Assembly (NCBI GenBank): GCA_001768965.1
Contig: MEMY01000095.1
Span: 1 to 33,361, forward strand
Direction of reading: 5' to 3'
From: an archaeon RBG_16_50_20
GTDB taxonomy: Archaea > Thermoproteota > Bathyarchaeia > 40CM-2-53-6
Length of the DNA stretch: 33,361 bases
This document shows, one piece after another, positions 4,290-30,501 of the stretch (the stretch's first letter is position 1; every line of letters starts with the position of its first letter). A program made the position numbers and the translations under genes. The notes below the pieces were generated by a model that made no database searches, was not told the DNA's origin, and saw nothing but the letters and a program-made list of their open reading frames with translations.

Positions 4290-7200
4290 CGGCCTTCACC
4301 TCCTGCATCGGTAAGCCGACCACTTGAGACGTCCCCTCTTGAATGAAAACTCCATAGACACTGTCGGCTCTTGCGATCGTCACGTCCTTCAATGATACTA
4401 CGATGAACTGAGAACCCTTGGATTTCGACTTGAGAAGCTCTGCGAGTCGTTGAGAGTTGACAACATCCAAGTGGGCATCCATCTCGTCCATCATGTAGAA
4501 GGGCATTGGATGGATCGCCTGCAAAGCTAGGATGAAGCACACTGTCCCGACGGATTTCTCGCCCCCGCTCGCGCTACCAATCGTCATCTCAGTCTTGCCG
4601 GGGAACTGTAGGCGTATGTCTGCTCCAGCTTCAAATGGGTTTTCGGGTTTCTCTAAGAACAGACGTCCCGCGCCTCCAGTGACCGTGGAGAAGATCTCGT
4701 TGAACGATTGGCTTACTTGGTTGAAGGCTTTCATGAAAGCTTCAAGCTTCTGTCGATCGACCTCGTTCATGAACTGGACAATCGACAGCTTCTCCTTTTC
4801 GAGATCATAGATCCTTGAAGCAAGGTGCTTGTAATTCTCCTTCACCTCTTCGTACTGCGACGCTGCAAGCTCGTTTACCCCGCCGATCGCCGCGATTTCC
4901 TTCTTCAGAATTGGTAGAGTCTTCTCTACGCCTTCTATCTCCTCATCAGCAACTTCTACTAGGTCTGAGTAGCCGAGTTCTCTTAGCTCGTTCATGTGGA
5001 ACTCGATTTGCATCCGTTGGTGCTTGGATGAGGCGGTAAGATCTGCCAGTTCCGTGTTTATGGGATCAAGCTCGTCTAGGAGTTTGGTTATCTCGGTCTC
5101 GATCTTCTTAGATTGGCCATCATATTCGTTCCGTTTTGCTTTAACCCCAGAGAGTTCCTCCGACAGTTGTTCTCGGCTTGCCTGTAACGTCTTTAGCTGG
5201 TCTTCGAATTTCGACATTTCAGCCTGCGTTAATGTCAGGTCAGAAGCCAGTTTCTGCAGTTGTTTATCGATGCTTGAGGTTTGGGTCTTGGTTTGTTCGA
5301 CAGAGGGTTCGATGACCGCGACAGTTGAGGATACGGATTCGATTCGACTGTCAGTCTCAATCTTCTGTCTTACTAGATCATTCAATTCAGTTGTAAGCTT
5401 AGCGTGGTCATTCTCCTTTTCTAGAAGTGTAGCGGAGCGAGAGCGTAGCTTCAGCGCGCCCCTATTCCGCTCGTACTCTGACAATCGTTGCTGTATCGGC
5501 TCTTTGTGCGCCACACTTGCCTCCAGGATGGCCTGTTCCGTTCCAATCTCGTGGACAATCTGTTCGATTCGAGTCTCTGTGTCTACGATGCTTCTGCGGG
5601 CCCGGTCCAAGCTCTCGATGAAGGATGCGATTTCTCTTTCAGTTGATCGTATGAGGTTCTGACTTTGTGCCTTTCTCTTACTCTGATCGAGGATCTCTTG
5701 GTCCACTCTATCAATATCCTCACGGGATTTCGCTGCCAGCCGCTCCAAAGAGGATAGCGTGTTTTTCAACTGCTCAACGGTTTGACCATTCAAGAGGAGC
5801 TTGGAGAGGTCGAAGGGCTGTCTGAAATATCCAGTCTCCATGGCGCCGCCCGGTTCATAGAGGTCCCCGGTTGCGGCAACCGCTCTGGTGCCCCTCAGAG
5901 AGGCAAGAAACGCGGATTTCTGGTTAGACGTCAGAATCGTGTCGCCGAACACAAAGTCGACCGCAGCTTTGAAAGGTTCGTCGAAAACGAGCTGGTCTGT
6001 CAAAGGACCGATTATGTTCCGAAGGCCTCTGGGATAATTCACCTTCTTCTGGAACGTAAGGTCTCCGAGTGGGATCAGCTTTACCCGGCCGACCTTCGCC
6101 TTCTTTAGGGCTTCAATGCATGAAACCGCGGTTCCTATGTTCTTCACAACGAGAGCTTTCATCCATCCTGCTGAGGCGGCCTCGACCGCCTTAGAATACC
6201 CATCCTTGACCTTGACGAGTGATAGTAGTCGTCCGTAGACGCCTTGAACTGCACCCGCCTTTGCCATCTCCTCAATTAGGTTTAGCGCTTTGTCCTCAGA
6301 AGCCATGTTCTCCGCTAGGTTCTTCTGAGTCTCAATTTCTACCAGCGCAGAGTTTGCTCGTTTGGCAACCTCGTTAGCGTGCTCTATCTCCTTAGTCCGT
6401 TGCTTCTTAAGCTCCGAATACTCTGCGACCTTCTTGTCAAAGTCCCCTAGCGTCGATTCCTCATCTCGCTTAACGGTCGCTAAGTCCTCAAGACGCTTGG
6501 TGACGGTCTGCAGTAACATTTCGTACTCTTCTTTCCTGGACCTGAGCGTTCGAAGGTGATTCTGAAGAAGGTCGATCTTGGTCGCGCTGGCTTTGATTTG
6601 AGCGTTGAACTTGATGATTCTGTGAGTTTGTGCACTTATCGAACGCTCAAGGTCTTCGGCATCCTTGCTGTTCTCGCCCAGCTTATTCCTAAGTTCGGTC
6701 AGCGTTTTGCTGGACTCGTCAACTTTCACTTGAGTCGCTTCGATTGCTCTGAGAACTTTCGTTTTTTGAATTCTGAGTTGTCGGAGCTCGTTTTTGGAAT
6801 TGCTTATCTTCTGGAGGATCTCTCCAGAGTTCTGTTCGAGATCGGTCTTTTGTTTTTCGAGGGATTTGATGTTTGCTTGTATTGCATTTGCCTGTGCCTT
6901 TAGACTCGCGATGGTTGCGCTGGCGTCACCCATCGCGCCTTGTACTTCGAGCAGTTTGCTGCTGCCCTTTTCGGCTACTGAGTCCTCGTATTCTCGTTTT
7001 TCGGATTCGACCTTTGATTTCTGCCGTATGAGCTCGTCTCTCTTTGCCTTAAGTTCTTGGAGTCTTTGCTGATGTTGGGTGATCTCGCCTTCTAGTTGGC
7101 TTGCTTGCTCCTGAGCTTTCTTGATTTTGTGTGAGAGAGTTTTTGCTTGAAGTTGGGAGATCTCCTTCCTGACTTGGAGGTATTTCAGGTAGTCATTGCG

Positions 7201-7824
7201 CTCTCGTTCCAGTGACTCGACGCGGAGTCGGACTTCCTCGATCTTGGCTGAGGCGACCTTGAGGTTGAGGTCGGCTTGCTGGAGCTCAGCTTGTGATGAG
7301 GCCTTCTTAACATCGTAGACGGCTATTCCTATCATGTCCTCAATTATTCGGCGGCGCTCTTCCGCGGTAACCTCCGCTAGTCTCGTTATGGCATGTTGTG
7401 GGACGATGTTGTAGCCTGAGACTTGGATATCAGCTGAGGAGAGGATGTCTGTGAGTTGCTTCCTGGAGATTCGCTTCCCGTTGAGTCGGTAAATGCCCTC
7501 TCCGCCGCGCCTGAATTCCCTAGAAATTGTCACAGCTTCAGAATCAATCGGGATCCTTCTGTCGTGATTATCGAACTGCACTGCAACATACGCGGAGTGT
7601 AGAGAAGTCGTTTGGGAGCTCTTGTGGATCAAGTCTCCGATTGTTTCGCCCCTAAGCTCTTTGGGGCTCAATTCGCCAAGAGCGAATTTAACTGCGTCAA
7701 GAATGTTCGATTTGCCGGACCCGTTCGGGCCGGTTATGATGGTGAGACCGCGGTCGAGATGGACTGTTGCTTTTTTCCCGAAGGTCTTGAAACCTCTCAG
7801 GTCAACTCTTTTGATATACACCAT
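4273..7824 (-). CDS. smc: Chromosome segregation ATPase SMC
   Basis: 1183 aa; Walker A GPNGSGKSN, long coiled coils, hinge, ABC signature SGGEKSVGT, Walker B MDEMDAHLD. Confidence 0.97.
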   Translation of the reverse strand: MVYIKRVDLRGFKTFGKKATVHLDRGLTIITGPNGSGKSNILDAVKFALGELSPKELRGETIGDLIHKSSQTTSLHSAYVAVQFDNHDRRIPIDSEAVTISREFRRGGEGIYRLNGKRISRKQLTDILSSADIQVSGYNIVPQHAITRLAEVTAEERRRIIEDMIGIAVYDVKKASSQAELQQADLNLKVASAKIEEVRLRVESLERERNDYLKYLQVRKEISQLQAKTLSHKIKKAQEQASQLEGEITQHQQRLQELKAKRDELIRQKSKVESEKREYEDSVAEKGSSKLLEVQGAMGDASATIASLKAQANAIQANIKSLEKQKTDLEQNSGEILQKISNSKNELRQLRIQKTKVLRAIEATQVKVDESSKTLTELRNKLGENSKDAEDLERSISAQTHRIIKFNAQIKASATKIDLLQNHLRTLRSRKEEYEMLLQTVTKRLEDLATVKRDEESTLGDFDKKVAEYSELKKQRTKEIEHANEVAKRANSALVEIETQKNLAENMASEDKALNLIEEMAKAGAVQGVYGRLLSLVKVKDGYSKAVEAASAGWMKALVVKNIGTAVSCIEALKKAKVGRVKLIPLGDLTFQKKVNYPRGLRNIIGPLTDQLVFDEPFKAAVDFVFGDTILTSNQKSAFLASLRGTRAVAATGDLYEPGGAMETGYFRQPFDLSKLLLNGQTVEQLKNTLSSLERLAAKSREDIDRVDQEILDQSKRKAQSQNLIRSTEREIASFIESLDRARRSIVDTETRIEQIVHEIGTEQAILEASVAHKEPIQQRLSEYERNRGALKLRSRSATLLEKENDHAKLTTELNDLVRQKIETDSRIESVSSTVAVIEPSVEQTKTQTSSIDKQLQKLASDLTLTQAEMSKFEDQLKTLQASREQLSEELSGVKAKRNEYDGQSKKIETEITKLLDELDPINTELADLTASSKHQRMQIEFHMNELRELGYSDLVEVADEEIEGVEKTLPILKKEIAAIGGVNELAASQYEEVKENYKHLASRIYDLEKEKLSIVQFMNEVDRQKLEAFMKAFNQVSQSFNEIFSTVTGGAGRLFLEKPENPFEAGADIRLQFPGKTEMTIGSASGGEKSVGTVCFILALQAIHPMPFYMMDEMDAHLDVVNSQRLAELLKSKSKGSQFIVVSLKDVTIARADSVYGVFIQEGTSQVVGLPMQEVKAVGRAK

Positions 7825-8102
7825 TTGGAATCCATGCTCGCTGCGGTAGTTTCGCGGGATTTTGTAACTTTAGCAACTCACGTGGTAGACCGGATGCTGC
7901 GAAAGTGCGAAGATAAGGCTTGGTTACATTTTCATGATGATTTGTATGGATAAGCTCATGTCAAATTTGGCATAGTGCTGCCTTTTCATCCTCGGACAAC
8001 TAAGACAAGTTCAGCTAAACCCGGGGGCGGCAACGTGTCATCGTATAGGGGGAGGAACCATGCGAAAGGCTATATGCAATTGACCGAAGGCGTGAGGCTT
8101 GC

Positions 8103-8885
8103 TTATCTCCCGAAACGACGTTTACGACGTTGATAGGTCCTTACAGCTCGTAATAGATCTATCCTTCGAAACTCCGGCCAGTAGACATCAAGAAAAACGA
8201 ACTCGCTATACGCCGCCTGCCAGATCAGAAACCCGCTAAGCCTCTCTTCTCCAGAAGTGCGTATGATTAATTCAGGATAGGGATTGGGCAAGTGCGATGT
8301 GTACAAGTATTTTGTGAAGACGTCTTCGTCAACTGAATCTGCGTTCAAGGTGCCGCTTTGAACTTCGTCGATCATGCGTTTTGCAGCGTCAACGATTTCT
8401 GCGCGGCCACCGTAGGCGACGGCGATGTTCAGGTAGTGTTGGTCATAGGCTTCGGTGACCTTCTCAACCTCAGCAAGGACCAATCTTAGCGATTCAGGGA
8501 GAAGTTCGAGACGGCCAATCGCCTTTACGTGAACCTTATTTTCGTGTATGCGGCGGTCTGTTGTGAGTTTCCTAGCTTCGTTCTCAATGATCCTTAGAAT
8601 AGTTGCGACTTCATCCTTTGGCCTCAGGAAGTTCTCCGTCGAGAACACGTAAAGCGTGACAGTCTTGATACCTAACTCAAGGCACCATTCTAGGAAATTC
8701 TCTCCTGTTTGTGCACCGTAAAGGTGGCCGTTCAATTGGTCTCCGTGCTTCTCGAACCCCCACCTCCGGTTTCCATCAAGTATGATGCCCACATGTTCTG
8801 GCATCTCGTCTCCCGTGAGACTTCCTTCAAGCCATTTCTCATAGAGCTTGTAGGCGCCAATTGTTCGGAGTACTGTGGGTAACAT
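8103..8885 (-). CDS. uppS: (Z)-prenyl diphosphate synthase (UppS family)
   Basis: PEHVGIILDGNRRWG; TLYVFSTENFLRP; PELIIRTSGEERLSGFLIWQAAYSEFVF. Confidence 0.95.
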   Translation of the reverse strand: MLPTVLRTIGAYKLYEKWLEGSLTGDEMPEHVGIILDGNRRWGFEKHGDQLNGHLYGAQTGENFLEWCLELGIKTVTLYVFSTENFLRPKDEVATILRIIENEARKLTTDRRIHENKVHVKAIGRLELLPESLRLVLAEVEKVTEAYDQHYLNIAVAYGGRAEIVDAAKRMIDEVQSGTLNADSVDEDVFTKYLYTSHLPNPYPELIIRTSGEERLSGFLIWQAAYSEFVFLDVYWPEFRRIDLLRAVRTYQRRKRRFGR

Positions 8886-22014: not shown

Positions 22015-23292
22015 CTAACTTGCAGAAATTGCGCCCGGAGATTTGCTTCTGAGAATGTTGATCAAATAGCCGGCGTTTAGAGCTGTGAAAACTGAGCCCG
22101 AAAGGAAATTCAACGCGAGTCTTGCGGGACCTATGACCTGAGACAATCCATTTTCGATCTGCCCATAGTCGAGATACACTGGCGACAGGAACCGAATAAG
22201 GAAGAAATTGTTCATTACGAGATATAACAGAGCAACACCCGCAGTCGCCAAGAACATTGGCTTACGCTTGCGATTCCACAAGGCGAAATCAACAGTAGAA
22301 AGGGCGAGCAAGTAAATCGCGTATTGCTCGGTTACTCGACTCTTGAAAACTAGAAATGAAAGGGTCACGACAAGTAGCGATTGTATGAGTCCGTAGTCTG
22401 AATCGAATCCGAATTTCCTATACGCAATCAAGGTGAAGATAATTACTGCGGGGATCCATAACACGCCAAGCAAGTCAGACACAAATGGGTCAAGCGTCGG
22501 AATGATTCCCTGGTAATTGAAGTAGAAGAACAGGTCCCACACGGACATTGATTCGCCAGATCTCGTAACCGTATAGCTTAGTGCGCTCGTGACAGTGGTA
22601 AGGGACCATCCCATTACGGCGAAAGTCGCGGCGGAAAATCCGATTGGTAACGCAATAGCTACCAGAAATGACTGCCAGTTCCGTCTACTTTTGAGGGATA
22701 GAGGGATGGCGTAAATGACGGGTATCGATTTAGCGAATGTGCCCAAACCGGCCCAGAATGCTCTTTTCAAGTGGCGAGTTGTCATAATGGAAATCATAAC
22801 GAACGCCATGGCAAGGGAGTCGAACATTCCCCAGATTCCCGACAGGATTATGGTGAATGGGCAGAGCATCCAGAAACGCAAGACCCAGACAGAAGTATTC
22901 AGGTTCCGCAAGCGCACATAGGAGTAGAGCAGGTAGCCAAGAGCCACATCGCCCAAAATAGTTGGCTGCTTGAGTAACAAGTAGTACAGGAACCTATCAT
23001 TCAAACCAATCGTCAAGTAGAGCATGTACAGCACACCGGTGATAAGGGGCCAGAATGGTAGGTACGCTATTGTCGCACTGTCTCGTAATGTGTAGAGGTT
23101 TGCAAAACTAAGGCCGGGTGCAGGTCCCAGAAATCCGTATGGGTTTCCACCATGTATCATCGCATAGCCCAGTCGCACCCAGAGCTCGAAATCGTACGGA
23201 TGCCCGGTCCAAAACGAGAAGACTTCTCTGATTGTCAAGCCTAAGAGCAATAGCAAGGTGGTTTGCTGCAGGCTCTTCTTAGTGAATTGCAA
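22015..23292 (-). CDS. Polytopic membrane glycosyltransferase, GT-C-like
   Basis: About 10 TM segments; N-terminal HPYDFELWVRLGYAMIHGGNPYG; GIWGMFDSLAMAF; FAKSIPVIYAIPL. Confidence 0.7.
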   Translation of the reverse strand: MQFTKKSLQQTTLLLLLGLTIREVFSFWTGHPYDFELWVRLGYAMIHGGNPYGFLGPAPGLSFANLYTLRDSATIAYLPFWPLITGVLYMLYLTIGLNDRFLYYLLLKQPTILGDVALGYLLYSYVRLRNLNTSVWVLRFWMLCPFTIILSGIWGMFDSLAMAFVMISIMTTRHLKRAFWAGLGTFAKSIPVIYAIPLSLKSRRNWQSFLVAIALPIGFSAATFAVMGWSLTTVTSALSYTVTRSGESMSVWDLFFYFNYQGIIPTLDPFVSDLLGVLWIPAVIIFTLIAYRKFGFDSDYGLIQSLLVVTLSFLVFKSRVTEQYAIYLLALSTVDFALWNRKRKPMFLATAGVALLYLVMNNFFLIRFLSPVYLDYGQIENGLSQVIGPARLALNFLSGSVFTALNAGYLINILRSKSPGAISAS

Positions 23293-23326
23293 TTGAGGTC
23301 TACCTGTCAGTTGAATATGTCCATAC

Positions 23327-23355
23327 TTACTACGATTGTAGTAACTTTTTTATAT
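23327..23355 (+). promoter_or_regulatory. Palindromic operator candidate next to TATA box
   Basis: TTACTAC-GATT-GTAGTAA (23327-23344) immediately followed by cTTTTTTATAT (23346-23355), upstream of ATG 23414. Confidence 0.55.
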
Positions 23356-23413
23356 GTTCTCCTCAAACCCAACATTATAACCTGCGTCATACACACATGG
23401 GAAGGCTCTCCAG

Positions 23414-24376
23414 ATGCAAACAACAATTTTAACAAAAGATGCAGATTTAGCGGACATTCGAAGCAATCTGGAGAAAGTTTACGAAGTCTCTGCTTACTTG
23501 GACTTTCCTTTCAGCTTAGATGAAGTAGCCAACTACTTTCTCCCTAATCGAAATATCACCTCCGAAAAGTTACGATTCATGATTTCCAATGGGGATTTCG
23601 CTAATATCCCATTTCAGATCAAAGATGGCTACATTCTGACTCGTGCATCACAGTCGGAGACTCTGCGTTTTGAGAGAGAGCAGATCTCGGGTGAAAAACT
23701 GCAATCAGCGGCGCGGTTCGCTAGAATCCTTACCAAAATAGTTCCCTTCATTCGGACTGTAGCTGTGACCGGTAGTGTTGCGTATGGAAGTGCAGGGAGG
23801 TGGGATGATATCGATCTCTTTGTGGTCACCGAGGGAAAGAGGCTGTGGCTGTCGGTCCTGATGGCTTTGGTAATGGTAAGAGTCGAGAAACTGTTGGGAT
23901 TGGCTCCTTCTCATCTTCTTCCTTTCTGTTTGAGCTACGTTCATGATGAGCAAGGATTCGCAGAAGATGCTTCACGGAACCGAGTCAATCCACTCTTTGC
24001 TCGAGAACTCCTCAAGGCGAAGCCTGTTGCTGGTCCAGAGCAGTACCGACTCATTTTGCAGGAAAATGACTGGGTTGGAGAACTATATTCGGCCCCCTAT
24101 GCAGCTGCATTGAAGGCACTAGATCAGGGACCATTGAACGGAGTTCAACCAAGAGTTGACCAGCCGGGACTGTTTGCGTTATTCTTTGATTGGGCCGAAG
24201 GTATTGTGTATGTCTTTCTGAGTCGCTACCTCAAATTGCGGGCATACTTAACCAACTTGAAGCTCAAGTCACAGAGACAGAAGCTGCGGGTCTTTGAATC
24301 AAGAATTACTCCGAACTCATGCGTATACACATCCAACTTCTACAGATGGCTACATTCACTGTGGGGTGAAAGATAG
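23414..24376 (+). CDS. HTH-nucleotidyltransferase fusion (Pol-beta fold)
   Basis: N-terminal wHTH-like region; AVTGSVAYGSAGRWDDIDLFVVTEGKRLWL (GS..G..DDxDLF). Confidence 0.78.
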   Translation: MQTTILTKDADLADIRSNLEKVYEVSAYLDFPFSLDEVANYFLPNRNITSEKLRFMISNGDFANIPFQIKDGYILTRASQSETLRFEREQISGEKLQSAARFARILTKIVPFIRTVAVTGSVAYGSAGRWDDIDLFVVTEGKRLWLSVLMALVMVRVEKLLGLAPSHLLPFCLSYVHDEQGFAEDASRNRVNPLFARELLKAKPVAGPEQYRLILQENDWVGELYSAPYAAALKALDQGPLNGVQPRVDQPGLFALFFDWAEGIVYVFLSRYLKLRAYLTNLKLKSQRQKLRVFESRITPNSCVYTSNFYRWLHSLWGER

Positions 24377-25827
24377 TGCCACTGGACTGTTTACTGGTAT
24401 TCCCGTACATGCTAAGTGACGATCCCACACAGAAACGGAAGAGAAGTCCCTTCCCACCTCTTGGCCTGATGTATGTTGCCGCCTCGCTCAGACAAGCAGG
24501 TTACAAAGTGGAAATTCTCGATTGCACATTCATGCAGAGCATCGAGCAAGCCGAACAGATCGTACGGAAGACAGAGGCGCGTTACATCGGCATTCATTCA
24601 ATGATTACCCTAACGCGAAACGCCGTAGCCTTAGCGGAGGCCGCGAAATCAGCGGGAAAGACGGTTATCTACGGCGGACCTGACCCATCTACAGCTCCTG
24701 ACAAGTATCTCAAGAAAGGTTTCGGAGACTACGTCGTCATGGGTGAAGGCGAAAGAACAGCGGTCGAACTCATTAGAGCTCTAGATCGGGGCGAGATTCC
24801 TTTGGACGTGAAGGGCCTTGTCTTTCTGACCGGTGAGGGCTCGATAGTTACCACACCCGCACGGGAGCTCGAACGGGACTTGGATTCCATCTTGTCTCCT
24901 GCCCGTGATCTGATCGACAATGAACACTACAAGGAAGTATGGCGTGCGGATCATGGCTACGCCTTGACCTCAGTGATGACGACTCGCGGCTGTCCCTATG
25001 GTTGTTTCTTCTGCAGCGAGAAGCTGGTCTTCGGGCGCCGTTACACTGTTCGAAGCGCGAACAACGTAGTCGCTGAGCTAGAAGACATCATCCGGAAATA
25101 CGGATACGACAGAGTCTGGTTCGCAGACGACATATTCCCACTGCGCAAAGAACGAACACTCCAGATCTGCAAAGAGATAATCAATCGAGCCCTAGATTTC
25201 ACCTGGTCTTGCTTGGCAAGGGCCGATCTCGTTGACGAAGAAGCACTTGCTTCAATGAAGCAGGCTGGCTGCGACATCGTATTCTTCGGAGTAGAATCAG
25301 GTTCCCAAAGAATGCTCGATGCAATGAACCGGATGATGACAATCGAGCAGATAGCGTCAGGAGTTTCTGCAGCCAAGCGAGTTGGCTTGAAGGTGCATGC
25401 GTTCATGATGGTTGGCTTCCCAGGCGAGAACTACGAATCACTGAAGCAAACGATCGAATTCCTCAAGGAACTGAGCCCTGACGAATTCAGCTTCACAGTG
25501 GCTTATCCACTGCCTGGGACAGAATTATTCCACATGATCGAGCCGATCGATGAGCAGCTTGAATGGCGCGACCCAAGCGAGAACAGGCTCCTGTTCGAAA
25601 GCAACATTCCAGAATGGGGGTTAAAATTCGCTGTCTGGAAGGCCAAGTACGAGTTCTACCTCTACCGTCGCATAAAGCGTGGTCAGACCATTTTCCGCGT
25701 GGCGTTCATACTCTTCAAGAAACCAACCGACATCGTCCTCCGCCTTTCGGTGCCCAAGGAGGCTATGGCTCCGAAACTCAGCAAATGCGCGATCATGTCC
25801 GAAGTGCTCGCGAGGCTCCCGCGGTAG
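24376..25827 (+). CDS. B12-binding-domain radical SAM protein
   Basis: GTG start overlapping upstream TAG; PPLGLMYVAASLRQAGYKVEILDC; TTRGCPYGCFFCSEK; ADDIFPLRKERTL; VFFGVESGSQRMLDAMNR. Confidence 0.93.
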   Translation: MPLDCLLVFPYMLSDDPTQKRKRSPFPPLGLMYVAASLRQAGYKVEILDCTFMQSIEQAEQIVRKTEARYIGIHSMITLTRNAVALAEAAKSAGKTVIYGGPDPSTAPDKYLKKGFGDYVVMGEGERTAVELIRALDRGEIPLDVKGLVFLTGEGSIVTTPARELERDLDSILSPARDLIDNEHYKEVWRADHGYALTSVMTTRGCPYGCFFCSEKLVFGRRYTVRSANNVVAELEDIIRKYGYDRVWFADDIFPLRKERTLQICKEIINRALDFTWSCLARADLVDEEALASMKQAGCDIVFFGVESGSQRMLDAMNRMMTIEQIASGVSAAKRVGLKVHAFMMVGFPGENYESLKQTIEFLKELSPDEFSFTVAYPLPGTELFHMIEPIDEQLEWRDPSENRLLFESNIPEWGLKFAVWKAKYEFYLYRRIKRGQTIFRVAFILFKKPTDIVLRLSVPKEAMAPKLSKCAIMSEVLARLPR

Positions 25828-26753
25828 GAATACCATTGATCCCTCTCACAATCGGCATCTGTGCGTACAATGAAGAGTGGAACATAGGTGAGCTTCTAAC
25901 AAACATACTTAGCATCCAAGGGATTCCCAAGGATGCGGAAGTAATCGCCGTTTGCTCCGGATGCCAAGACGGGACGGCAGAGGTTGTCCGGGAATTTGCT
26001 CGCAGAGACCGTCGTGTGAAACTGATAGAAGAGCCAAGAAGACTGGGAAAGGCTGCGGCCGTGAACAAGATTCTATCTAAGGCTAAAGGCGAACAGATAG
26101 TGTTTGTTTCTGCCGACGTCATTCCGAGGCAAGACTGCATAATGAGTCTCGTAAGGACAATGGCAGATGAGAATGTCGGGATAGCCTGCGGAAGACCCGA
26201 ACCAATTCCCCGTGGAAGGAAGCTTGTGAAAGGGCTCGTAGAGACGCTGTGGGGATTTCATAACTGGCAGTTGGAGAAGCTGAACCACGCAGGAGTCCTA
26301 ATGCACGCCAGCGAAGTTTTCTGTGTCAGGAATGGGATTGTAAAGCAGATTCCCCGGGGGTTGGTGAACGATGACGCTTTCCTTGCTGTTGCTGCGAAGG
26401 GTAGAGGATATCGAATCAAATACGTTCCGCAATCTGAGGTTAAGGTCTTCGGACCCCAGACTATCTCCGATTACCTGACACAGCGGCGTCGCATTATTGC
26501 CGGGCACTATCAAGTTCGCTCGGCAACTGGCCATTTCTCTCAGTACCTCTTCTACTCCCTTCTTGCGAGGCCGAAGCTAACTTTGGAGACTTTGGCTGGA
26601 TATTTCGCCAAGAAACGAAAAATCGCGGGTGGGTTGGTTGCTGGGTTGGTTGAAGTGATGGCAAACTTGCTCGCGTTATCTGACATTGTCAGAGGGAGAT
26701 CTCATGCGGTATGGAGTATCTCCTCTACTGCGAAGACAGCGACTGAACTTTGA
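25785..26753 (+). CDS. Family 2 glycosyltransferase; start ATG 25785 or TTG 25836
   Basis: IPLTIGICAYNEEWNIGELLTNIL; VIAVCSGCQDGTAEVVREFARRD; VNDDAFLAVAAKGRGYRIKYVPQSEVKVFGP; TQRRRIIAGHYQ. ORF-track start 25563 is mostly out-of-frame with the radical SAM gene. Confidence 0.9.
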   Translation: MRDHVRSAREAPAVGIPLIPLTIGICAYNEEWNIGELLTNILSIQGIPKDAEVIAVCSGCQDGTAEVVREFARRDRRVKLIEEPRRLGKAAAVNKILSKAKGEQIVFVSADVIPRQDCIMSLVRTMADENVGIACGRPEPIPRGRKLVKGLVETLWGFHNWQLEKLNHAGVLMHASEVFCVRNGIVKQIPRGLVNDDAFLAVAAKGRGYRIKYVPQSEVKVFGPQTISDYLTQRRRIIAGHYQVRSATGHFSQYLFYSLLARPKLTLETLAGYFAKKRKIAGGLVAGLVEVMANLLALSDIVRGRSHAVWSISSTAKTATEL

Positions 26754-27199
26754 ATCACCCAAGCTCTACTCGTTTATTCAACCGGATTCATCGGCTCGTA
26801 TTCCTATACCTCTTCAGGGACTTCGACAAGGGCACTTTGGACACTGGTATCGAGTTCACGACTCTGCTCCCCCTGAGGAAGGACAGAGTGATATGCCGGG
26901 CGATGACGTTCAACATCAAAGGACTCAAACGAGACTCATTCGTCGTCGACGGATCAAATCGTAGAATAGTCAATCTGCCGGGACGCTACGTTTGCTATTG
27001 GATCAACGGGAAGCAAGATTCCGCAACGATATACAACCGACCATATCGAAGAAGCTCGGACGGCTCTTATGTTCACAGCTCAAGAAATGCAAAAAGCGAA
27101 GTTGCCTTTGATGGTGAAGGGTTAGAGAAGAGAGCTGAGAATCTAGTTTCCGGGCCTAGACGGTATCACGAGATATTCGTGCGACTCTTTCGATTCTGA
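26750..27199 (+). CDS. Uncharacterized protein, 149 aa (TTG start overlapping upstream TGA)
   Basis: Same-strand ORF, TTGA stop/start overlap with GT2; no recognisable domain. Confidence 0.55.
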   Translation: MNHPSSTRLFNRIHRLVFLYLFRDFDKGTLDTGIEFTTLLPLRKDRVICRAMTFNIKGLKRDSFVVDGSNRRIVNLPGRYVCYWINGKQDSATIYNRPYRRSSDGSYVHSSRNAKSEVAFDGEGLEKRAENLVSGPRRYHEIFVRLFRF

Positions 27200-27871: not shown

Positions 27872-28723
27872 TTATGCAGGTTTGATGAACAATAGTACCT
27901 GGGATGTCGCGTACATGAAAACTAAGCCGAGGATTATGGCAAAAGGTAGCCCTGGAAACATGTCGCGGCCTTCGAGCATTTTGAAGCCCAGATAGGCTCC
28001 GACTACGAGTCCGATGGACGCGGCAACAAAGGGTAGTGGACCGAAATTCATCATTGAGTTACTTGCGAGCATAGAGTAGAACACCATGTCACCCATGCCG
28101 ACCGTCAAATCCCCGTACGTGAAGACGGCTCCCGTGAATTCCTCAAGATCAGTCGACTGCGCCATCTTCCCAATCGGCCCTTTGTATACGGCGAAAATGT
28201 CGTAGGCCGCCAGAGCAAGCAAAAGTGCAGCTGCGGTTAGTGTCGGGATTGAGACGCCCAGAAAGGTTCCGGTCATTCCTCCGATTAGGATTATGGCAGC
28301 AAAGTGGACCCCGCCTTTCGATTTGTGAAGTGCCAACCCGAGTGTGACTGAAACAAGCAGGCTAATGATCAGCCAAATCCAGCTGTCCGAAGCCAAGAAG
28401 GATGGAAAGTAGTCGGCGTAGAGTGTGCCGTACCATGTGAAGAGGAAGAAGACGAGGGCGAGAACTGCGAGGTTGATCAGGTACCTTACGATGCGTTTCA
28501 GCCCGAATTTTATGAAGAGGTACATCATGGTCCCAGTAGCAGCCATCAAGATTACGAAGATGCTCGCATTCAGTGTAATGCCCCCAGTTGTTTCGGGAAA
28601 GATTGTGATTGTTTCTATTGGGGCGTTGGAGGCTCGAAGACTGTAGGTTAACGCGCCTGCTAACGCTATGGCGAGTATCTCGGGGAGCAGAAGTGTTGGT
28701 TTTGCTTTGAATTCGTTACTCAA
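27872..28723 (-). CDS. Presenilin/signal peptide peptidase-family intramembrane aspartyl protease
   Basis: Polytopic; YD motif in ALAAYDIFAVYKGPIGKMA and GxGD in YGDLTVGMGDMVFYSML. Confidence 0.88.
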   Translation of the reverse strand: MSNEFKAKPTLLLPEILAIALAGALTYSLRASNAPIETITIFPETTGGITLNASIFVILMAATGTMMYLFIKFGLKRIVRYLINLAVLALVFFLFTWYGTLYADYFPSFLASDSWIWLIISLLVSVTLGLALHKSKGGVHFAAIILIGGMTGTFLGVSIPTLTAAALLLALAAYDIFAVYKGPIGKMAQSTDLEEFTGAVFTYGDLTVGMGDMVFYSMLASNSMMNFGPLPFVAASIGLVVGAYLGFKMLEGRDMFPGLPFAIILGLVFMYATSQVLLFIKPA

Positions 28724-29249
28724 TCTGTATCCTCACCTGTGAACGGCATTTGCCGCAAAAATCTGGACCTTTATAGTCAGTGTCAGCGAGCGTGTTAGAA
28801 AAGTACATCACACATGACGTGTCAGAGCAGTGCTCTAAACCCACCATATGACCAATTTCGTGGATAGCTTCTTTGACGACCCGTTCCACGAACAGACCAG
28901 CTTTGCTGCGAGAAGAGGCTTTCAATCTGTAGGTTGAGATGATTCCCACGCGGCCTGGCAGCCTAGCTTCCCCGAATACGAAATTCAATCCCGGAACAAA
29001 CAGATCAAAATGTGTAACGCCCAAAAGTCTGTTGACTTGCAGATTTTGGATTTCCTGCTCAAGAAGTATAAGGATCCGGGTTGAGTGATATTGGTTTCTA
29101 AGTGAATCGTAGGCCTCTGCTGGTTCAGCGAGTGTACTGGTGATGCTTGCATCAATCCAGGGAAATCTTGTGGTGATTGGATCTCGCAAAGTGTCAAGTG
29201 GATAGTCTAGGGTGGTACCGACCTGGATGAGCCCTAAGGTCTCAGACGT
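28716..29249 (-). CDS. Archaemetzincin; start uncertain, ORF extends to 29342
   Basis: HEIGHMVGLEHCSDTSCVMYFSNTLADTDYKGPDFCGKC. Confidence 0.9.
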   Translation of the reverse strand, partial: TSETLGLIQVGTTLDYPLDTLRDPITTRFPWIDASITSTLAEPAEAYDSLRNQYHSTRILILLEQEIQNLQVNRLLGVTHFDLFVPGLNFVFGEARLPGRVGIISTYRLKASSRSKAGLFVERVVKEAIHEIGHMVGLEHCSDTSCVMYFSNTLADTDYKGPDFCGKCRSQVRIQIE

Positions 29250-30501
29250 CGCAGATCTCTCCGGGTCGCGGTGTCGTCGCCTGCAGTCCCAATTCCTGTG
29301 ATGCCCAGTCCGCCAAGTGCCTGCAGTTTGCTTCTTCTCCATGAATCACGAAAACTTTCGTTCGCTTGTCAAGATCCCTGAGCGTCTCTTGAAGTTGTGT
29401 TTTTCCGCCGTGTGATGAGAAGTCGAATTTCTCAACGCGCGCTCCGACCTTGCGTGCCTTTCCATGAAGTATGAAGCGTCCTTCGTCAAGTAATATTCTT
29501 CCGGGGGAACCTTGCACCTGATAGCTCACTAGGAAGATTCCGTTGTCTTTGTTGTTTGCGATGTTCTCCATGTAGAAAACGGATGCTCCTCCTTTCAGCA
29601 TTCCTGCGGGGGAAACTATGACTCCTGCAGTTCGGGCCGCGCGACGTCGACCGTTCCAATTCGATATCTGGTCAGCCTGCCTCATTGCCTGCTTGAACTG
29701 TTCCTGGTTTCTCAGGGAGTCTGGATGCTCCTCAAGCATTCTGATCGCATCCAAAGCCATACCATCTACGAAGACCGGGTAGGAGAAGTTGTGGTCGGCG
29801 AGCATGCAGATAATTTCCTGGGAGCGACCCACTCCGAAGGCCGGGACTAGCACGGTGCCTCCTGCTTCCACAACCTCTTTGCATGCGAGGACGAAGTTTC
29901 GCTCGGACTCAACTCGATCTGGGTGATCCTCTGCAGCGTATGTGCTCTCTATGACGATCGCATCCAGATCGTTGTAAGCTCGGTCTGCACCGGGTACGAG
30001 ATGCGTTGGAATCAGATTGAAATCTCCAGTGTAGAGAACCCGTTTTCCCTCAGCCGCCACGATTACCTGTGCGCTTCCAGGTATGTGCCCTGCGTTGACC
30101 AGGGTGATTTCAGCATCGCCCACTGTAAATTTGGAGCGATAATTTACTGGGAGGACATGGTTCAGCATATTTTCGAGGTCTATGTATTCGAAGGGAAGAT
30201 AGTAGCCGCTGAGTTTGATCATGTCGCGCACGAGGACTTTCGTCAGCTTGAATGTCGGCTCAATGCCGTAAACGGGCAACCTGGACGCATGAGCATAGAA
30301 TAGAGGTATCAGCCCACTGTGATCGAGGTGAGCATGAGTCAGGACGACTGCATCAAGATCCCTCGGAGAGATGTGAACTGGAAAGCCCAGGTCATGGTTT
30401 ATCATAACTCCATAATCCATGAGTATCTGGCTACGGGCGGTTTTGACAGCCACACCGGATCTTCCAACTTCCTGACAAGCGCCTAGGAATCGCAGTTGCA
30501 T
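29242..30501 (-). CDS. Beta-CASP metallo-beta-lactamase ribonuclease (aCPSF2-like)
   Basis: MQLRFLGACQEVGRSGVAVKT; VVLTHAHLDHSGLIPLFY; GHIPGSAQVIV; YTGDFNL; VFVIHGEEANCRHLADW. Confidence 0.92.
   Translation of the reverse strand: MQLRFLGACQEVGRSGVAVKTARSQILMDYGVMINHDLGFPVHISPRDLDAVVLTHAHLDHSGLIPLFYAHASRLPVYGIEPTFKLTKVLVRDMIKLSGYYLPFEYIDLENMLNHVLPVNYRSKFTVGDAEITLVNAGHIPGSAQVIVAAEGKRVLYTGDFNLIPTHLVPGADRAYNDLDAIVIESTYAAEDHPDRVESERNFVLACKEVVEAGGTVLVPAFGVGRSQEIICMLADHNFSYPVFVDGMALDAIRMLEEHPDSLRNQEQFKQAMRQADQISNWNGRRRAARTAGVIVSPAGMLKGGASVFYMENIANNKDNGIFLVSYQVQGSPGRILLDEGRFILHGKARKVGARVEKFDFSSHGGKTQLQETLRDLDKRTKVFVIHGEEANCRHLADWASQELGLQATTPRPGEICDV

Follow-up and report, generated by a model that had tools for sequence, protein, structure and literature searches.

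In hopanoid synthesis, a GT2 glycosyltransferase and a B12-binding radical SAM enzyme work on the same lipid head group, and the radical SAM enzyme AprD4 acts on an aminoglycoside, a sugar substrate. Glycosylphosphatidylinositol (GPI) mannosyltransferase I (PIG-M/GPI14, CAZy GT50) and mycobacterial PimE represent the GT-C fold among membrane mannosyltransferases. How archaea make the head groups of their membrane glycolipids is incompletely assigned. Here we analysed a 33,361-nt stretch of archaeal DNA, hereafter the window (positions 1–33361 of contig MEMY01000095.1, C95, in the draft genome G000 of archaeon RBG_16_50_20; 1.34 Mb, 67.5% complete), in which genes for a Pol-beta-fold nucleotidyltransferase (NTase), a B12-binding radical SAM enzyme and a GT2 glycosyltransferase diverge from a gene for a GT-C membrane glycosyltransferase. 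The operon looks ordinary, yet it belongs to a linked module, of which it is one arrangement, that occurs in two archaeal phyla. This compact, recognizable gene set was apparently unnamed before; no description of it was found among papers available under open licence in PMC, which is weak evidence of absence.

The GT-C gene (22015–23292, minus strand, 425 aa) is transcribed away from the genes for NTase (23414–24376, 320 aa), the radical SAM enzyme (24376–25827, 483 aa) and GT2 (25836–26753, 305 aa) and from a 149-aa open reading frame (ORF; 26750–27199), all on the plus strand. An earlier note, made from the letters of this sequence, had reported these ORFs and their overlaps; both are confirmed, and the plus-strand genes overlap or nearly abut. 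The TAG of the NTase gene and the GTG of the radical SAM gene share one base (24376), and the GT2 TGA (26751–26753) overlaps TTG 26750, the start codon of the 149-aa ORF. The note had placed the GT2 start either within the end of the radical SAM gene or just beyond it. The mechanically assigned start at 25563 falls inside that gene, so that the likelier start is about TTG 25836, just 3′ of the radical SAM stop.

The note had proposed a neighbourhood search as the check on its cluster; this search found the gene families together elsewhere in archaea, with the GT-C gene linked there to NTase and GT2. With a single NTase sequence, only the window genome and G006, a member of the same family, were found among 61 relatives, and seven matches were obtained in 398 genomes of the phylum, where a profile gave four (G000, G268, G349 and G386). 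When named genomes were scanned with a GT-C profile, 17 loci were recovered, in Thaumarchaeota, Nitrososphaerales, Thermoplasmata and one Thermoprotei archaeon, a sample biased to close GT-C relatives because the search patterns were two GT-C peptides. NTase was present in 14 of these 17 loci and GT2 in the same 14; 14 of 17 also encoded a class I methyltransferase (MT), in which an F420H2_quin_red-like N-terminal domain precedes, in one fused protein, the UbiE-like part, and none (0/17) the radical SAM enzyme. MT stood without NTase in L063, at a contig end, and in L067, on a 4.8-kb contig. In the class of Ca. Lutacidiplasma silvani (Thermoplasmata), 98 of 300 genomes carried NTase, and the module could therefore lie behind the surface chemistry of many archaea not yet in culture. 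Thirty-nine NTase-anchored loci were fetched from Thermoplasmata; in the 37 with NTase at E ≤ 1e-20, GT2 was found in 30 (within 400 bp in 29), MT in 29 and GT-C in 9, counts that, like the others for linkage, come from profiles built from the same families and are uncorrected for kinship among loci. Neither NTase nor MT was found in 16 control loci or in the rest of the window; GT-C-like and weaker GT2-like matches did occur in controls, because some of these are glycosyltransferase loci. GT-C was present in all five genomes G000, G006, G268, G349 and G386, the last with the order GT2–NTase and GT-C convergent. The linkage seen from both anchors therefore defines the core as NTase, GT2 and GT-C plus a tailoring enzyme, usually MT. 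Thus the undescribed glycan- or lipid-modification cluster of the earlier note stands in that its families co-occur in other archaea, but NTase with the radical SAM enzyme is not its conserved core. In one locus (L058), a phosphoesterase-family protein (PF04185, 3.2e-69; 7034–8476) lies between MT and GT-C, and several named carriers apparently come from acidic or mine settings, judging by isolate name only.

In G006 the gene order is NTase–MT–GT2–GT-C, and in the window the radical SAM gene occupies exactly the MT slot (NTase–radical SAM–GT2, with GT-C divergent). The same NTase–radical SAM–GT2 order was found in G268 (95% complete), with GT-C on another contig. No MT was detected at E ≤ 1e-6 in G268 or in the window and G000, the absence in the latter being weak evidence because the genome is incomplete. 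A specific B12-radical SAM clade thus takes the place of MT in the window genome and in the distant G268. Thirteen MT-type genomes lacked this clade, four of them holding a distant relative in another context. In G349, NTase–GT2 and, about 4 kb away, GT-C share one contig, and another contig carries the radical SAM enzyme together with MT and a weak relative of the window's 149-aa ORF; because this genome has both enzymes, and four Thermoplasmata hold the more distant radical SAM relative, strict exclusivity was rejected, and exclusivity is a tendency rather than a rule. The NTase/radical SAM pair singled out in the earlier note exists, adjacent in two genomes and with both members present in three, as a rare variant. 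It was rejected as a conserved pair, since MT is the common partner.

We put it at slightly better than even that this locus represents one version of an envelope module, conserved in archaea, for building and decorating a membrane-anchored glycan. At the cytoplasmic face, GT2 would glycosylate a lipid acceptor with a nucleotide sugar as donor, and NTase would attach a nucleotide to, or activate, the sugar or sugar phosphate used by GT2, in keeping with the nucleotidyl or sugar activation suggested in the earlier note. A tailoring enzyme, normally MT and here the B12-radical SAM enzyme, would modify the head group; the latter would most likely methylate or otherwise remodel a sugar carbon, a form of the radical methylation or C–C bond chemistry that the note had envisaged. 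After flipping, the PIG-M-like GT-C would use a polyprenyl-phosphate donor to add a hexose, by analogy mannose, at the outer face. Expression would be controlled at a palindrome between the divergent genes (23327–23344), probably by a BlaI-type repressor.

The radical SAM enzyme matched B12-binding (PF02310, 4e-21) and Radical_SAM (PF04055, 3e-28) in Pfam, with the cluster motif CPYGCFFC (CxxxCxxC at C206, C210 and C213) and the subfamily marker DPTQxxKR; a B12-binding domain joined to such a core is the domain make-up of B12-dependent (class B) radical SAM methyltransferases. Its relatives in G349 and G268 are 46–51% identical to it, and the three form one clade (support 98/95). At E < 1e-150 this subfamily was found only in these three of the 398 phylum genomes, all of which carry NTase; the chance of three out of three being NTase carriers, given seven carriers, is 3e-6, or 2e-4 without the window genome, figures that treat sampling only and ignore kinship. 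In NCBIfam, PhpK, HpnJ (161 bits), BchE and AprD4 were close in score and all far below their curated cut-offs, the best score being 165 bits against a cut-off of 600. These matches raise an alternative for this single step, in which the enzyme would rearrange or deoxygenate the head-group sugar as HpnJ, BchE and AprD4 do, and would not functionally replace MT. The best solved relative is AprD4 diol-dehydratase (6fd2, E 1.3e-31), the hopanoid pair sets a precedent for GT2 and a B12-radical SAM enzyme presumed to share one lipid head group, and G349 has both MT and the radical SAM enzyme. The enzyme's exact placement in the MT position, in the interval between NTase and GT2, and the lack of MT in the 95% complete G268 argue for replacement instead, and we regard the alternative as a serious contender that is nevertheless somewhat improbable. 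The likeness to described systems also has limits: the window enzyme scores 141.8 against the AprD4 cut-off of 500, its HpnJ match compares with a cut-off of 577.6, GT2 reaches only 15.4 bits to HpnI, and, unlike the hpnI/hpnJ setting, the module has an extra NTase and GT-C, and no hopanoid genes were seen.

More distant radical SAM relatives lie in other surroundings. Eight genomes from other families of the same phylum (L047–L049, L051, L053, L054, L056 and L057) share a second neighbourhood, in which a radical SAM enzyme about 42% identical to that of the window adjoins a protein of about 260 aa with no assigned family; a GT2 of about 640 aa with membrane segments, a DoxX-like membrane protein and a distant GT-C also occur there, the parts not all being visible in each locus. 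In the Thermoplasmata loci L094–L097, a distant B12-radical SAM relative (E of about 1e-85 to 1e-92) adjoins apparent SUF-type iron–sulphur genes.

GT-C resembles PIG-M (GPI mannosyltransferase I) in profile and in predicted fold; use of the Dol-P-Man donor and glycosylated inositol phospholipid acceptor of that enzyme would be putative here. The window sequence gave no Pfam match at E ≤ 1 and, searched singly, no match to PDB sequences. A profile from ten archaeal homologues matched GPI mannosyltransferase 1 in the PDB (E 1.5e-15, about 255 columns). The AlphaFold2 model (mean per-residue confidence, pLDDT, 85.2) had as its best Foldseek match 9wno, GPI mannosyltransferase I (E 2.5e-7, TM 0.65/0.68), followed by PIG-U, PimE (TM 0.60/0.68) and ALG6. 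The alignment shows invariant R-E, (W/F)-T-G-(H/Q)-P and D34-x-E36 motifs; D34 and E36 are invariant among the archaeal homologues, and the profile alignment to PIG-M begins only at column 101. Unlike PIG-M and PimE, with which it shares the GT-C fold and profile similarity, the window protein is archaeal, lacks a Pfam match, has D-x-E rather than the tested D-x-D and is embedded with NTase and GT2. It is 43–44% identical to its nearest relatives, in Thaumarchaeota, versus 32% to that of G006 from its own family. Simple transfer from one donor is unsupported by this pattern, and the placement of NTase in its tree is unsure because long branches meet. The occurrence of a PIG-M-like enzyme in an archaeal module bears on the origin of GPI-type mannosylation.

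The main rival has another product in place of a glycolipid head group. The module might make or modify the N-glycan of surface (S-layer) proteins on a dolichyl carrier: in archaea, the lipid-linked oligosaccharides used in protein N-glycosylation are products of GT-C and GT2 enzymes, and the GT-C fold matches include ALG3, ALG6 and ALG9. The best matches, however, are PIG-M, PIG-U and PimE, which belong to phosphoinositide mannosylation or the GPI transamidase. No oligosaccharyltransferase was recognized in the gene maps of module loci, for which no dedicated profile was run, and the text of a glycoproteomic paper on N-glycosylation in Nitrososphaerota mentions no nucleotidyltransferase, gene cluster, mannosyltransferase or radical SAM enzyme. 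We consider an N-glycan product unlikely.

NTase matched NTP_transf_2 in Pfam (E 1.1e-5, above the gathering score). Its motif is GS...DDxD, with G120, D132 and D134 invariant in 12 family members, and D178 is the candidate third carboxylate, D or E in most members. The earlier note had placed a helix-turn-helix domain at the N terminus; Pfam detected none, whereas the AlphaFold2 model (pLDDT 85.7) has a helix–helix–helix–strand–strand order at residues 9–75 that is compatible with a winged helix. Short members of about 215 aa (L134–L139, L157 and L158), mostly from lower-GC genomes, do without this winged-helix-like domain, which is therefore dispensable. No match was found with the NTase sequence among PDB sequences, in a single-sequence scan of the genome contig collection or, using the family member of L060, by tblastn against plasmids. 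By Foldseek, the nearest chains to the model were minimal nucleotidyltransferase (MNT) antitoxins and AadA/ANT aminoglycoside nucleotidyltransferases, both weak (E ≥ 0.03). These share the Pol-beta fold, GS and DxD with NTase; unlike them, NTase is larger, with a wing-like N terminus, a long C-terminal region and a conserved glycosyltransferase context.

Such matches allow a reading of NTase as a regulatory or defence protein, an AMPylator resembling MNT antitoxins that lies in a glycosyltransferase operon by chance. The nearest chains do include antitoxins of HEPN–MNT pairs, and the winged-helix-like N terminus would suit such a role. The fold matches are equally to AadA/ANT enzymes, which act on sugars, and no HEPN gene was recognized nearby (the neighbours being GT2, MT, radical SAM and GT-C genes; no dedicated HEPN profile was run). 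NTase–GT2 adjacency is conserved in 29 of 37 loci. Matches in PADLOC were weak (0.003–0.005, over about 40–50 residues), and a defence-system assignment was rejected on this account. We find a chance MNT-type gene distinctly improbable.

GT2 matched Glycos_transf_2 (PF00535, 3.6e-24). Its aligned motifs are SAD, NDDA and QRRRI; motifs of the SAD/D/QxRRI type are consistent with enzymes that work at the edge of the membrane and glycosylate an acceptor there. One C-terminal hydrophobic segment is kept in homologues, and a weak match to Glyco_transf_21 (E 0.0033) hints at a lipid acceptor. That the radical SAM enzyme instead modifies tetraether lipid tails, like Grs, Tes and calditol synthase, with the glycosyltransferases incidental, is very unlikely: archaea do use several radical SAM proteins (Tes, Grs and Cds) in tetraether lipid synthesis (PMC8941075), but no such model was among the 25 NCBIfam matches listed (coverage of those families was unchecked), in two distant genomes the enzyme is linked by gene order with NTase and GT2, and its subfamily occurs in only 3 of 398 phylum genomes.

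The 121-bp region between the divergent GT-C and NTase genes holds a perfect palindrome, TTACTACgattGTAGTAA (TTACTAC-N4-GTAGTAA; 23327–23344, without strand), a candidate operator of a BlaI-type repressor. It is followed directly by a TATA-like stretch, cttttttatatg (23345–23356, plus strand), 58 bp before the NTase ATG, which may be a promoter element; the same arrangement was found in L060. Exact matches to TACTAY-N4-RTAGTA numbered nine in 1.08 Mb of module loci and none in 368 kb of control loci. Seven of the nine lay upstream of module genes, in windows making up 9.5% of bases (binomial 2e-6). Besides the window palindrome, sites of the form YTACTAY-N4-RTAGTAR stand upstream of module genes at L063 1379–1396, L060 6631, L068 6665, L124 1752, L140 10486 and L159 10462; these sites span two phyla and lie mostly in loci that hold genes for BlaI and a BlaR1-like M56 peptidase. 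Proteins matching a BlaI profile were encoded in seven module loci (L060, L064, L068, L122, L124, L140 and L159), each also with a BlaR1-like M56/M48 peptidase gene; Pfam identified the BlaI of L060, L064 and L068 as Penicillinase_R and confirmed the peptidases in L060 and L064. Six of these seven loci had the exact palindrome and the seventh a one-mismatch copy just before BlaI; this co-occurrence has p of about 3e-6 over 61 loci. L140 and L124 had copies upstream of both BlaI and NTase. The palindrome p values are not fully pre-specified, because testing followed the discovery of the motif in the window. Binding to TACA/TGTA sites is reported for BlaI, MecI and CopY (PMC7253601), and the TAC...GTA ends of the module dyad recall these half-sites. 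Unlike BlaI/MecI sites, the dyad is TACTAY-N4-RTAGTA, and repressor binding to it is putative. Because the palindrome is shared across phyla, a single protein and a single DNA fragment would suffice to test the proposed regulation.

Several observations weigh against an envelope module of the kind proposed. We infer the substrates of all its enzymes, and no lipid-acceptor enzyme, flippase or sugar-nucleotide supply gene was recognizable in it. Only some of the Thermoplasmata loci include GT-C, the putative third carboxylate of NTase is N or S in G268 and G349, MT and the radical SAM enzyme may do different jobs given that G349 has both (the other two radical SAM genomes lack MT), and no BlaI gene was found in 687 kb examined of the 1,337-kb window assembly. 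A fuller version, which we think improbable as a whole, would have the two phyla share a GPI- or phosphatidylinositol mannoside-like membrane glycolipid whose head group carries nucleotidyl and (radical-)methyl modifications, made by a mobile module with interchangeable tailoring and governed by a BlaI/BlaR1-type envelope-sensing switch on the conserved palindrome. The gene set, with a tailoring enzyme that can be exchanged and with a candidate operator, lends itself to expression and assay.

Downstream on the minus strand, genes for a presenilin-type protease (27872–28723) and an archaemetzincin M54 protease (28716–29342) lie close together, and no link to the module was seen. The 149-aa ORF had no significant match in Pfam or NCBIfam. 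Its coding score was 0.065 (core 0.09), the spurious ORFs that overlap reaching −0.04 to 0.034, and its weak relative in G349 adjoins the radical SAM and MT genes (1 in 2000 shuffles was as good); because of both, the ORF is a probable, though not a certain, gene. Genes of 149 and 156 aa 3′ of GT2 in G268 and G349 were considered as its homologues on account of their size and rejected, since they did not match it. They read as OsmC-like proteins (L043 2548–2997 and L045 9637–10107) that stand after GT2 in place of the 149-aa ORF, perhaps as a lineage-specific addition.

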